The translations under genes and the position numbers were made by a program. A model generated the notes under the pieces. That model saw only the letters and a list, made by a program, of their open reading frames with translations. It had not been told where the DNA came from and did no database searches. A stretch of DNA of 38,630 nt, from contig NATW01000099.1 in the NCBI GenBank assembly GCA_003094555.1, positions 1 to 38,630 of the forward strand, in the 5' to 3' direction. Position 1 is the stretch's first letter. Each line of letters starts with the position of its first letter. The stretch is from a gamma proteobacterium symbiont of Ctena orbiculata. GTDB lineage: Bacteria > Pseudomonadota > Gammaproteobacteria > Chromatiales > Chromatiaceae. Shown here piece after piece: positions 24,024 to 27,091 of this stretch.

Positions 24024-25835
24024 GTGATTGAAAACCTAAGAAATATCGCCATTATCGCGCATGTGGATCATGGCAAGACCACGCTGGTGGATGAACTGCT
24101 GAAGCAGTCCGGGACCCTGGGTGAGCGTTTTGGCGATGTGGAACGTGTCATGGACTCCAACGATCAGGAGAGGGAAAGGGGTATCACCATCCTGTCGAAG
24201 AACACGGCCATCCGCTGGAATGACTATCGAATCAATATCGTCGATACCCCCGGGCATGCGGATTTTGGTGGCGAGGTTGAGCGGGTGTTGTCGATGGTGG
24301 ATTCTGTGTTGCTGTTGGTGGATGCCCAGGAGGGTCCGATGCCCCAGACCCGGTTTGTCACTCAGAAGGCCTTCAAACACGGCCTGCGCCCGATCGTGGT
24401 GGTGAACAAGATCGATAAGCCTGGGGCGAGGCCGGACTGGGTCGTCGATCAGGTGTTTGAGTTGTTCGACCGTCTCGGGGCAACCGATCAACAGCTCGAT
24501 TTTCCCATCGTCTATGCCTCGGCCGTGAATGGCTACGCGGGACTGGAGAGCGATGTGCAGCAGGGGGACATGCGGCCGTTGTTTAAAACAATTGTCGATC
24601 ACTGCCCGCAACCCGATGTGGACCCGGACGGCCCTTTCCAGATGCAGGTCTCAAACCTGGACTACAACAGCTATGTGGGTGCGATCGCAGTGGGCCGGGT
24701 GACCCGGGGTACCATCCAGCCGAATCAACAGGTCAGCGTGGTGAAATACGACGGCGAGCAACATCGCGGGAAGATTGGCATCGTCTACGGTTACCTCGGT
24801 CTGGAACGTTTCGAGGTCGATCAGGCGAGTGCCGGTGACATCATCGCCATCAGCGGAATGGAGGCCCCGAATGTCTCCGATACCCTGTGTGATCCGGAAC
24901 ATGTGGAGGCGATGTCCCCGCTGACAGTGGACGAGCCAACCGTATCGATGACCTTCCAGGTGAATACCTCCCCCTTCGCCGGGCTCGAGGGCAAATATCT
25001 CACCTCCAGACAGCTCAAAGAGCGTCTCGAGCGAGAGCTGATACACAATGTGGCGTTGCGGGTCGAGGAGGGCACGGATCCGGAGAAATTCAAGGTCTCC
25101 GGGCGGGGTGAACTGCACCTGTCCGTGTTGATCGAGAACATGCGTCGTGAGGGCTATGAGCTGGCCGTTTCCCGACCCGAGGTGATCTTTCGAGAAGTGG
25201 ATGGTGAGGTCTGCGAACCCTATGAGCAGCTGACCGTGGATGTGGAGGAGAAGGACCAGGGCAGCATCATGGAGGCATTGGGTGCCCGCAAGGGTGAGCT
25301 CAAGGATATGGTGCCGGATGGTAAAGGCAGGGTCCGCCTCGACTACATCATACCTTCACGGGGACTGATCGGATTTCAGACCGAGTTCATGACCACCACT
25401 TCAGGTACAGGTCTGATCTACCATGTTTTCGACCACTACGGCCCGACCCAGCATGGGGGGATAGCACCGAGGAAGAATGGGGTTCTGATTGCCAATGGTC
25501 AGGGCAAGGTGCTTGGATATGCCCTGTTTAATCTCCAGGAGCGGGGCCGGCTCTTCTCATCACCCGGTGATGAGGTCTATGAGGGACAGATCGTGGGCAT
25601 CCATTCACGGGAAAACGACCTGGTGGTAAATCCGCTGAAAGGCAAGCAGTTGACCAACATACGCGCCTCCGGAAAGGATGATTCGATAATCCTGACCCCC
25701 CCGCTGCAGTACAGTCTCGAGCAGGCGCTGGAGTTCATCGAGGATGACGAACTGGTCGAAGTCACCCCGGGTGACATCAGGTTACGCAAGAAGCACCTCA
25801 AGGAGTTTGAGCGCAAACGTGCGTCACGGGAGTAG
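24024..25835 (+). CDS. typA: Ribosome-dependent GTPase TypA/BipA
   Basis: 603 aa, normal length. The start is GTG 24024, because [20 protein letters not shown] matches the invariant start of the family; the Shine-Dalgarno signal is weak (AGG ten bases upstream). G1 AHVDHGKTT, switch region [15 protein letters not shown]3 [14 protein letters not shown]4 [10 protein letters not shown]; then the beta-barrel domain, EF-G-like domains III and V ([34 protein letters not shown]) and the BipA-specific C-terminal domain ([19 protein letters not shown]). TypA binds 70S ribosomes and aids large-subunit assembly, particularly in cold and stress. Confidence 0.98.
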
Positions 25836-25902: not shown

Positions 25903-25942
25903 AAAATAGAAGAAGCCCAACCGCAATCCTTGCAGTTGGGCT
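25903..25942 (-). terminator. Terminator of the candidate Rsm/Csr RNA, with GGA at its loop
   Basis: On the minus strand AGCCCAACTGCAA pairs with TTGCGGTTGGGCT (one G-T wobble), leaving GGA as loop; a T-rich tail (TCTTCTATTTT, 25913 to 25903) follows. On the plus strand no T run follows, so it is a minus-strand terminator. Confidence 0.75.
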
Positions 25943-26027
25943 CATGGTCGTCGGCTTGGTTGGCTAAGCTTTTCGTCCCTGTGCTCTCCTGAGCTGTGTG
26001 TCCTTTAAAGTTCATCCCTGATGACGA
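25903..26027 (-). ncRNA. Candidate CsrB/RsmZ-family small RNA sequestering CsrA/RsmA
   Basis: A predicted RNA of about 120 nt read leftward. It holds five GGA motifs (plus-strand TCC at 26015-26017, 26001-26003, 25987-25989, 25976-25978 and 25927-25929), four of which fit A-N-GGA. Two sit in hairpin loops: GCTC-AGGA-GAGC (25983-25994) and the apex of the terminator, a 13-bp stem closed by the triloop GGA (25914-25942). UCAUC-AGG-GAUGA (26012-26024) forms another hairpin. The 5' GTCGTC can pair with GACGAC (25947-25952). A weak -10 TATTAA lies at 26032-26037. Dyads like the GacA/UvrY box lie upstream (26084-26123). Length, GGA spacing, terminator and upstream box are all as in RsmY/Z/CsrB RNAs, which titrate the translational repressor CsrA. 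The exact 5' end is estimated. Confidence 0.75.
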
Positions 26028-26083
26028 CAACTTAATATTGACACAAAATGTAACTTTTGCTGTGGGATTCCGCACACATTGTT

Positions 26084-26123
26084 TGTGAGATTTTTCTCTA
26101 ATCGTTGTAGGATTTTTCCTACA
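26084..26123. promoter_or_regulatory. GacA/UvrY-type upstream activating dyads
   Basis: TGTAGG-ATTTTT-CCTACA at 26106-26123 is a perfect dyad with the geometry of the GacA box TGTAAG-N6-CTTACA. A second, imperfect copy TGTGAG-ATTTTT-CTCTAA lies at 26084-26101, its centre 22 bp away (two helical turns). Their centres fall near -67 and -89 of the estimated sRNA start. The right dyad also lies 17 bases before the pip start, so a role there, or as a hairpin, is possible. Confidence 0.55.
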
Positions 26124-26140: not shown

Positions 26141-27091
26141 ATGAAAGACCTCTATCCGCCCATCGAACCATTCGCAACCCAGATGCTGGCTGTGGAGAAT
26201 GGCCATCGACTCTACCTGGAGCAGGTTGGCAATCCGGACGGGATTCCAGTGCTGTTTCTGCATGGCGGGCCGGGTGCCGGCTGTGAACCCTACCACCGCC
26301 GATTCTTTAATCCCGACCACTATCGCGTCGTGCTTTTCGATCAGCGGGGGTGTGGACACTCCACGCCGCATGCCTCCATTGAGTCCAATACCACCTGGGA
26401 TCTGGTGGATGATATGGAAAAGATCCGCCGGCAGCTGAATATCGAGCAATGGCTGGTGTTCGGCGGATCATGGGGATCGACCCTCGCCCTGGCCTATGCT
26501 CAAACCCACCCGCAACGGGTCACCGGTATGATCCTCAGAGGGATCTTTCTCTGTCGTGATGAAGAGATCGACTGGTTTTATCAACATGGGGCAAGTCAGG
26601 TTTTTCCCGACTATTGGGAGGATTTTGTCGCCCCCATCCCTGAACAGGAACGAGACGATCTGTTACATGCCTATCATCGTCGCCTGAGTGGTGACAACGA
26701 CATTGATCGAATGGCGGCAGCCAAGGCGTGGTCGGTGTGGGAGGGCCGCGCTGCCAGCCTCCACCCCAATCCCGCGGTGGTCGGGTTTTTTTCCAATCCT
26801 CACACAGCCTTGAGTCTGGCGCGTATCGAGTGCCACTATTTTATCAATCATGCGTTTCTGTACCCGAATCAGTTGTTACTGGAGAGCGACAGACTGGCGG
26901 ATATTCCTGGAATCATCGTGCAAGGTCGCTATGATCTTATCTGTCCCATGGCCTCCGCGTGGGCGCTTCATCGAGCTTGGCCTGGGAGTGAGTTGAAGGT
27001 GATCGGGGATGCCGGTCACTCCGCGGCGGAACCCGGCATACGCAGTGCTTTGATCGAGGCAACGGACAAATTTGCGAAGGCATTTTCATGA
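26141..27091 (+). CDS. pip: Proline iminopeptidase
   Basis: 316 aa, the standard length for the alpha/beta-hydrolase peptidase family S33. It removes N-terminal proline from peptides in the cytoplasm. Visible: PVLFLHGGPGAGCEPYHRRF (oxyanion region), VVLFDQRGCGHSTPHASIES, the nucleophile elbow GGSWGSTLALAYAQ, the catalytic Asp in VQGRYDLICP and His in GDAGHSAAEP. Trp-rich cap as in the family (AAKAWSVWEGRAASL). No strong Shine-Dalgarno sequence (AAGATAGCG) precedes the ATG. Its stop overlaps the dtd start by four bases (ATGA), so the two are co-translated. Confidence 0.95.
   Translation: MKDLYPPIEPFATQMLAVENGHRLYLEQVGNPDGIPVLFLHGGPGAGCEPYHRRFFNPDHYRVVLFDQRGCGHSTPHASIESNTTWDLVDDMEKIRRQLNIEQWLVFGGSWGSTLALAYAQTHPQRVTGMILRGIFLCRDEEIDWFYQHGASQVFPDYWEDFVAPIPEQERDDLLHAYHRRLSGDNDIDRMAAAKAWSVWEGRAASLHPNPAVVGFFSNPHTALSLARIECHYFINHAFLYPNQLLLESDRLADIPGIIVQGRYDLICPMASAWALHRAWPGSELKVIGDAGHSAAEPGIRSALIEATDKFAKAFS

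Follow-up and report, generated by a model that had tools for sequence, protein, structure and literature searches.

Sponge RNAs of the Csr and Rsm systems

Gac/Rsm-Csr switches decide between lifestyles in many Gammaproteobacteria, and among the described elements closest to the one reported here are their regulatory RNAs, namely RsmX, RsmY and RsmZ of Pseudomonas, which end in a terminator, and CsrB and CsrC of Escherichia coli, which act as sponges of the Csr system under UvrY/GacA control. We describe a small RNA (sRNA) gene predicted to share these properties, on the minus strand between typA and pip in a stretch of 38,630 nucleotides (nt) analysed in full (the window; contig NATW01000099.1 of GenBank assembly GCA_003094555.1, in our numbering contig C99 of genome G000) from a symbiont of the clam Ctena orbiculata. 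The genome (4.07 Mb) is one of Candidatus Thiodiazotropha, the sulfur-oxidising symbionts of lucinid clams. We consider it quite probable that the gene encodes a GacA-activated sRNA of the CsrB/Rsm type with a built-in second target, the csrA mRNA. It is also likely that the Chromatiales sponge family, including clam and tubeworm symbionts, Sedimenticola and its kin, acts at two levels, titrating CsrA through GGA motifs and pairing with the csrA leader in an RNA-RNA feedback loop. Expression of the RNA, its binding of CsrA and its effect on csrA mRNA are predictions from sequence comparison.

The likeness to RsmX, RsmY and RsmZ comprises a short RNA with about five to six GGAs as in RsmX, ANGGA motifs in hairpin loops, a palindromic GacA-type sequence upstream and more than one copy per genome, including tandem duplication as in rsmX (PMC7911923). 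Up to five rsmX copies are known, and ANGGA displayed in loops is the motif recognized by RsmA/E (PMC7911923); the palindrome upstream of rsmX/Y/Z has been described as a potential GacA site (PMC2375449). Unlike these RNAs, the present one has no Rfam match, carries a GGA-free segment complementary to the csrA leader, shows at some of its loci another half-site in phase 22 bp downstream and forms four-copy tandem arrays in some genomes. It is because of the csrA-complementary segment that the sponge appears to be a variant not seen before.

CsrB and CsrC hold 22 and 14 GGAs, respectively (PMC11882849), whereas the present RNA is shorter and has fewer. In E. coli the longest stretch of CsrB complementary to the 235 nt preceding csrA is 8 nt, close to the average of about 7 obtained on shuffling the shorter RNAs of this study. 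Base pairing and CsrA titration are combined in one RNA in McaS and others (PMC10729762), as we propose here, but McaS pairs with other mRNAs such as csgD (PMC10729762), whereas the predicted partner of the present RNA is the mRNA of the titrated protein itself. Pseudoalteromonas fuliginea similarly has several Csr sRNAs per genome (Pf1, Pf2 and Pf3) and a predicted antisense RNA to the CsrA mRNA, sRNA0654 (PMC11882849). In that species, however, the csrA antisense RNA is a separate, GGA-free molecule, and the sponges Pf1-3 are predicted to pair imperfectly with a few mRNAs (PMC11882849). In the open-access literature we found no report of a CsrB/Rsm-type sponge pairing with csrA or rsmA mRNA and no description of the present RNA in Chromatiales.

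A segment complementary to the csrA leader

A covariance model built from 44 diverse members (R2) identifies the RNA in 129 of 210 genomes of the order, representing 40 of 61 genera; model R1 identified it in 89 of these genomes and 29 genera. The most conserved stretch of the RNA, UUUGCCAACCAAGC, is free of GGA, and 47 of 62 related RNAs carry it exactly or with one mismatch at GCCAACCAAGC. These 62 loci, also used below for the half-site, -10 and ANGGA counts, derive from 73 R2-matched loci by omission of L097:3188 and L118 (leaving the 71 loci of the promoter-box set), of L103:5813 and of eight loci that are near-identical or short. The csrA leader of the window's own genome reads GGCTTGGTTGGCAA, the reverse complement of the segment over 12 bases, and the match extends to up to 17 bases elsewhere. 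This complementarity could not be seen in a preliminary description of the locus, which was made from the window alone.

We took csrA leaders from genomes according to sRNA status, not leader content (six further loci came from another set), and searched them with a complement consensus drawn up when the G000 leader was already known. The main csrA leader holds 9 nt or more of the complement in 49 of 52 sRNA-positive genomes (26 of 29 genera) and 11 nt or more in 39 of the 52, whereas none of 10 sRNA-negative genomes of the order and none of 5 from elsewhere in the class reaches 9 nt, the longest stretch among them being 7 nt. A csrA match was obtained in 67 of 70 genomes, with none in G050, G080 and G083; this search supplied 51 of the 52 sRNA-positive genomes, and G012 and the five from elsewhere in the class came from the other set. 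Left out of the leader count were G040 (whose contig includes 52 nt of leader), G017 (a paralogue alone, with 7 nt), G069b (start not located) and the sRNA-positive G200 (weak csrA paralogues only), together with the second csrA genes G049/L258 (6 nt), G215b (0), G057b (0), G007b (7) and G008b (6), lower-scoring csrA paralogues, and three genomes from outside the order with weak sRNA matches, G457 (9 nt), G038 (8 nt) and G529 (0).

The position of the leader site is similar throughout, 62 to 117 nt upstream of the csrA start codon in the 49 genomes. Of 14 leaders examined, 13 have an extended -10 element (TGNTARAAT-like) immediately before the site, for example on the minus strand of L038, the csrA locus of G000, about 120 nt before csrA; this would place the pairing site 24-42 nt after the transcript start. 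In several lineages changes in the leader match changes in the segment. In G097, whose sRNA has the sequence CTGAGTTTGCCAACCAA, 17 pairs follow one another without a gap, and in G076 the segment is shifted, with AAGCCAACCAAA opposite TTTGGTTGGCTT. Predicted segment duplexes range from -23.5 to -40.4 kcal/mol in nine hand-picked genomes. When each sRNA was compared with the leader of its own genome, 35 of 53 pairs showed a perfect complement of 11 nt or longer; among 2404 control tiles of equal size from around the sRNA loci, which include some tandem copies, 27 did. Duplexes predicted between the entire RNA and the leader were long, bulged and uninformative, and an ungapped display was used instead, for which the G040 leader was too short.

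Several observations weigh against this interpretation. Three of the 52 sRNA-positive genomes have less than 9 nt of complement, and as R2 itself contains the segment, the sRNA-negative genomes may hold segment-less sponges. A perfect match of at least 9 nt inside the segment is found in only 40 of 53 pairs (34 of 44 genomes), and some copies misfit: among 54 displayed pairs, wobble-allowed runs fall below 10 in G069 (8), G177 (9), G190 (4), G457 (9), G529 (2), the second copy of G119 (7) and the fourth tandem copy of G008 (7). Folding predictions for the leader leave the csrA site partly paired (probability unpaired 0.20-0.70), and the Rfam models for CsrB and Rsm RNAs give no match. Swapping partners between genera lowers flank pairing (own versus swapped z 3.3-3.6, kinship not controlled; one pair per genus, 27 groups, three of them from outside the order), but the same test is also positive in shifted registers (z 2.7-3.5 at +1 and 2.1-2.5 at -1). 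Given these positive shifted registers and the uncontrolled relatedness, we treat the swap test as support, not proof.

An ordinary CsrA sponge resembling RsmX/Y/Z, in which the segment serves the RNA itself (its fold, its protection from RNase or a protein) and the csrA match is incidental, would account for all of the sponge features. It could also draw on the fact that an 11-nt match alone is not rare genome-wide: the 11-mer of the segment occurs at 92 places in 20 genomes, 41 of which are the sRNA or csrA by coordinates, and the remaining 51 are near the level of a reversed control (43). These genomes were picked after the match was known, and the count tests only the rarity of the motif elsewhere. 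We nevertheless regard an incidental match as unlikely given the contrast between 49 of 52 sRNA-positive and none of 10 sRNA-negative genomes of the order, the similar place of the match in the leader and its tracking of segment changes in several lineages. A still less probable explanation is that the shared motif is a DNA site, in opposite orientations, for a regulator that binds at the csrA promoter region as well as at the sRNA gene. The motif does lie just downstream of the csrA extended -10, and two co-varying DNA sites would give a similar picture, but in the sRNA gene it stands about 65 nt inside the transcript, outside the promoter, and the match is up to 17 nt long in one genome. The 51 places against 43 in the control likewise argue against a general DNA site or a large regulon based on perfect matches.

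Structure, promoter and distribution of the RNA

The preliminary description had proposed an Rsm/Csr-type RNA on the strength of five minus-strand GGA motifs, two of them exposed in hairpin loops (GCTC-AGGA-GAGC and a terminator loop of GGA), a closing stem, a T-rich terminator tail and an upstream TGTAGG-N6-CCTACA dyad with a partial copy 22 bp away, and every one of these elements was recovered (Table 1). The minimum-energy fold of 26033-25905 (-41.9 kcal/mol, z -2.8) contains the closing stem, the terminator, whose loop is exactly GGA, and the GCUC-AGGA-GAGC hairpin, whose GGA is unpaired with a predicted probability of 1.0, so that two of the five GGAs in the window's copy are in hairpin loops. 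In this single sequence the number of GGAs is not unusual (5 vs. 3.5 in dinucleotide shuffles, p 0.21), although ANGGA is enriched (4 vs. 1.0, p 0.006), and the weight therefore rests on comparative evidence. Across the 62 related RNAs there are 277 ANGGA motifs against 54 +/- 7 in dinucleotide shuffles, a mean of 4.5 per RNA.

The predicted structure is also conserved by compensatory change. In an alignment of 27 distinct Thiodiazotropha copies (A1), every pair of the middle GGA hairpin changes on both sides with pairing kept, C-G being replaced by A-U in 11 of the 27, for instance; over the structure as a whole there are 38 two-sided cells, versus 16 in shuffles. Across genera (44 members) the count is 117, compared with 35 in shuffles and 12-22 in slid controls; one closing-stem pair is C-G in 29 of 44 and U-A in 12 of 44, and the terminator covaries too. 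A further hairpin around the segment, GCUU-AGCCAACC-AAGC, is invariant in 27 of 27 Thiodiazotropha sequences, hence gives no covariation signal, and loses its outer pair in many other genera; a kissing-loop model based on it is left as an idea. The notion of a base-pairing (Hfq-type) sRNA with incidental GGAs, which would suit one conserved pairing segment with a conserved partner, is very hard to reconcile with the strong ANGGA enrichment, the GGAs in hairpin loops with covarying stems and the GacA-type boxes in the promoter.

Table 1. Coordinates of the sRNA gene, its elements and its flanking genes in the window
Feature	Position	Strand	Basis
Small RNA gene, CsrA-sponge type	25906..26030	-	Covariance models R1 and R2 match 26030-25906; covariation
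GacA-type box 1 (distal), TGTAGG-N6-CCTACA	26106..26123	-	Aligned in relatives; one of two perfect sites in the genome
Degenerate GacA-type box 2, TTAGAG-N6-CTCACA	26084..26101	-	Conserved in Thiodiazotropha copies
Degenerate GacA-type box 3, TGTGTG-N6-CCCACA	26061..26078	-	Aligned in most Thiodiazotropha copies, missing in three
Putative -10 promoter element	26035..26040	-	A at -9 and T at -5 conserved over 62 loci
Closing stem, 5' arm, GUCGUC	26023..26028	-	97.3% of cells paired; C-G to U-A change across genera
GGA 1 (AUCAGGGAUG)	26015..26017	-	Sequence
GGA 2 (AAAGGAC)	26001..26003	-	Sequence
Hairpin GCUC-AGGA-GAGC	25983..25994	-	4/4 pairs with two-sided changes in 27 Thiodiazotropha copies; 86.1% of cells paired
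GGA 3	25987..25989	-	Loop of GCUC-AGGA-GAGC hairpin
GGA 4 (ACAGGGACG)	25976..25978	-	Sequence
Invariant segment GCCAACCAAGCC	25953..25964	-	Exact reverse complement of csrA mRNA leader site of own genome
Closing stem, 3' arm, GACGAC	25947..25952	-	Covariation across genera
Intrinsic terminator hairpin, then U-rich tail	25913..25943	-	Fold; 9/11 pairs with two-sided changes across genera
GGA 5, terminator loop	25927..25929	-	GGA near 3' end (terminator region) in 61/62 related RNAs
typA, flanking gene, opposite strand to RNA	24024..25835	+	NCBIfam TIGR01394, 945.7 bits
pip (prolyl aminopeptidase), divergent flanking gene	26141..27091	+	NCBIfam TIGR01249, 435 bits

Sites resembling TGTARG-N6-CYTACA with a score of at least 10 of 12 occur in 50 of 70 upstream regions (some near-identical; of the 71 loci, L114 was omitted for its short upstream region), compared with 14 of 1400 dinucleotide-resampled sequences and 3 of 70 control regions from downstream. 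Relative to the model start, 43 of the 50 fall between -70 and -73. The best box is at -93, one 22-bp step further upstream, in the window's copy and in most of the other Thiodiazotropha copies beside typA, and box 2 occupies -71, the position of the main box in most other genera examined. Copies L018-L020 are without about one 22-bp step, which brings the box to -72 in the two scored. A CYTACA half-site (at most one mismatch) is found at -59/-60 in 51 of the 62 loci, with a background of about 1 per position, a second one 22 bp downstream, at -37/-38, in 23, and both in 21. From the location of the -10 element at -10 to -5 over the 62 loci, we place the putative transcription start close to the initial G of the closing stem and predict an RNA of about 123 nt with its 5' end near 26028 and its terminator end near 25906. 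The perfect TGTARG-N6-CYTACA palindrome occurs at only two sites in the genome, box 1 and C70:6759. At the latter (C70:6759-6776; L211:1501-1518) R2 gives no match, and three ANGGA motifs were seen by eye within about 70 nt on one side.

The window's genome also encodes the proteins expected of such a system. The csrA gene (L038 1474-1656, beside the aspartokinase gene lysC) matches NF002469 with 115.8 bits against a cut-off of 73, and its product has, by eye, L4 and R44, which we take to be the characteristic CsrA residues at these positions. A GacA/UvrY homologue, one glycosylase-like gene away from uvrC, scores 271 bits, just under the curated 280, and ranks first among 66 matches by a wide margin (193 for the second). 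Several ANGGA motifs, some in hairpin loops, a terminator, a GacA/UvrY-type box, csrA and a gacA/uvrY homologue are thus all present, and the earlier assignment to the Rsm/Csr type gains from the ANGGA enrichment, the covariation, the conserved promoter boxes, the partner genes, the expected stems and GGA loops of the fold and the retention of these loops and the boxes at the typA junction in relatives. What did not hold is membership of a known Rfam family. Over the whole genome the best PrrB_RsmZ (RF00166) score is 18.7 bits against a threshold of 44, at a place other than this locus, in a search without a positive control since 0 of 14 control genomes pass; the best CsrB (RF00018) score is 12.4 bits against 71, a threshold passed by one of 14 control genomes, E. 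coli being among the matching ones. Neither the window nor any of 20 related loci contains a match above the gathering threshold of an Rfam 15 family, and loose-threshold matches to Plastid-psbl-rps4 (E 0.11) and Ocean-V (E 0.58) were dismissed as weak chance matches. As these thresholds are not reached, the RNA would work like the RsmX/Y/Z-CsrB class while standing outside its described families.

The family appears widespread in Chromatiales, in symbionts of marine clams and tubeworms as well as in free-living relatives, and is new as far as Rfam and the open-access literature tell. By DNA search of 39 genomes, the region is present in 21 of 21 genomes of the genus and in 0 of 18 others. In a sample of the class, 30 of 369 genomes match, three of them of this family and most others weak, the best matches from outside the order having E-values of 1e-9, 5e-7 and 8e-7. 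In a scan of public genomes, R2 also matches 37 of 38 stretches holding the exact segment, including those of Sedimenticola, the Solemya velesiana symbiont, endosymbionts of the tubeworms Escarpia and Lamellibrachia, and two metagenome-assembled genomes titled Cycloclasticus; a Coriobacteriaceae contig with the exact segment and no R2 match is probably a chance match.

The RNA is a free-standing gene, with both flanking genes on the opposite strand and a D-aminoacyl-tRNA deacylase gene (NCBIfam) adjoining pip. Among 47 fetched loci, chosen from R1 matches, typA is near the RNA in 25, 20 of which belong to other genera, and the opposite side is often occupied by pip or the deacylase. The element is not a terminator of typA, given that only the minus strand carries the U-rich tail and that its promoter side is conserved, nor a coding gene, as relatives are distinguished by single-base insertions and deletions. 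A blastn search of a plasmid collection returned no match.

A second, diverged copy matching R2 lies beside folK in the same genome (C131:21816-21942; L188:3001-3127). It has a box-like site at -72 and a half-box about 22 bp downstream, and retains the csrA-complementary core. Five Thiodiazotropha genomes (G002, G008, G011, G013 and G016) have four tandem copies and one elsewhere. The array of G008 (L112:2552-3710), the only one whose flanks were examined, sits between typA and pip; each copy has its own box-like site, and the outermost is degenerate, with three GGAs and a broken csrA segment. In G040 (L111:3001-3198) the RNA seems internally duplicated, with nine GGA motifs and a second near-copy of the segment. 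A GGA-rich RNA of a second type, with a box-like site upstream and without the csrA segment, was observed at L094:5773-5906, L151:1402-1533 and L133:4622-4755, and these three loci also carry the main type.

Proposed mechanism and significance for the symbionts

We propose that phosphorylated GacA would switch the RNA gene on and that its GGA motifs would bind CsrA dimers, thereby freeing the mRNAs targeted by CsrA. The segment would pair with the csrA mRNA about 60-117 nt before the start codon, beyond the region normally covered by the ribosome, and simple occlusion is therefore unlikely; mRNA decay or refolding of the leader would be the likeliest route to lower csrA. Pairing would most likely remove or silence the csrA mRNA, so that a single transcript would take away the protein as well as its source. 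The sign of the effect on the mRNA is the least certain step of this scheme. We lean toward repression. A lesser possibility is sequestration of the sRNA, in which a very abundant csrA mRNA would restrain it and set a threshold, and a somewhat fainter one is activation or CsrA delivery, the RNA carrying CsrA onto the csrA mRNA.

In clams, csrA is among the most abundant transcripts of Candidatus Thiodiazotropha endolucinida (median transcripts per million of 85,248.5, 78,449.9 and 83,987.0 in three hosts; PMC13137333), and another study lists it among the top shared transcripts of lucinid symbionts (PMC12172469). In the literature searched we found no CsrA antagonist RNA described for these organisms, and the present RNA is a candidate for the missing RNA arm of the switch in clam symbionts and their relatives. 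It also raises a testable question of general interest, namely whether a protein sponge can, beyond titration, control the synthesis of its target by pairing with the target's mRNA.
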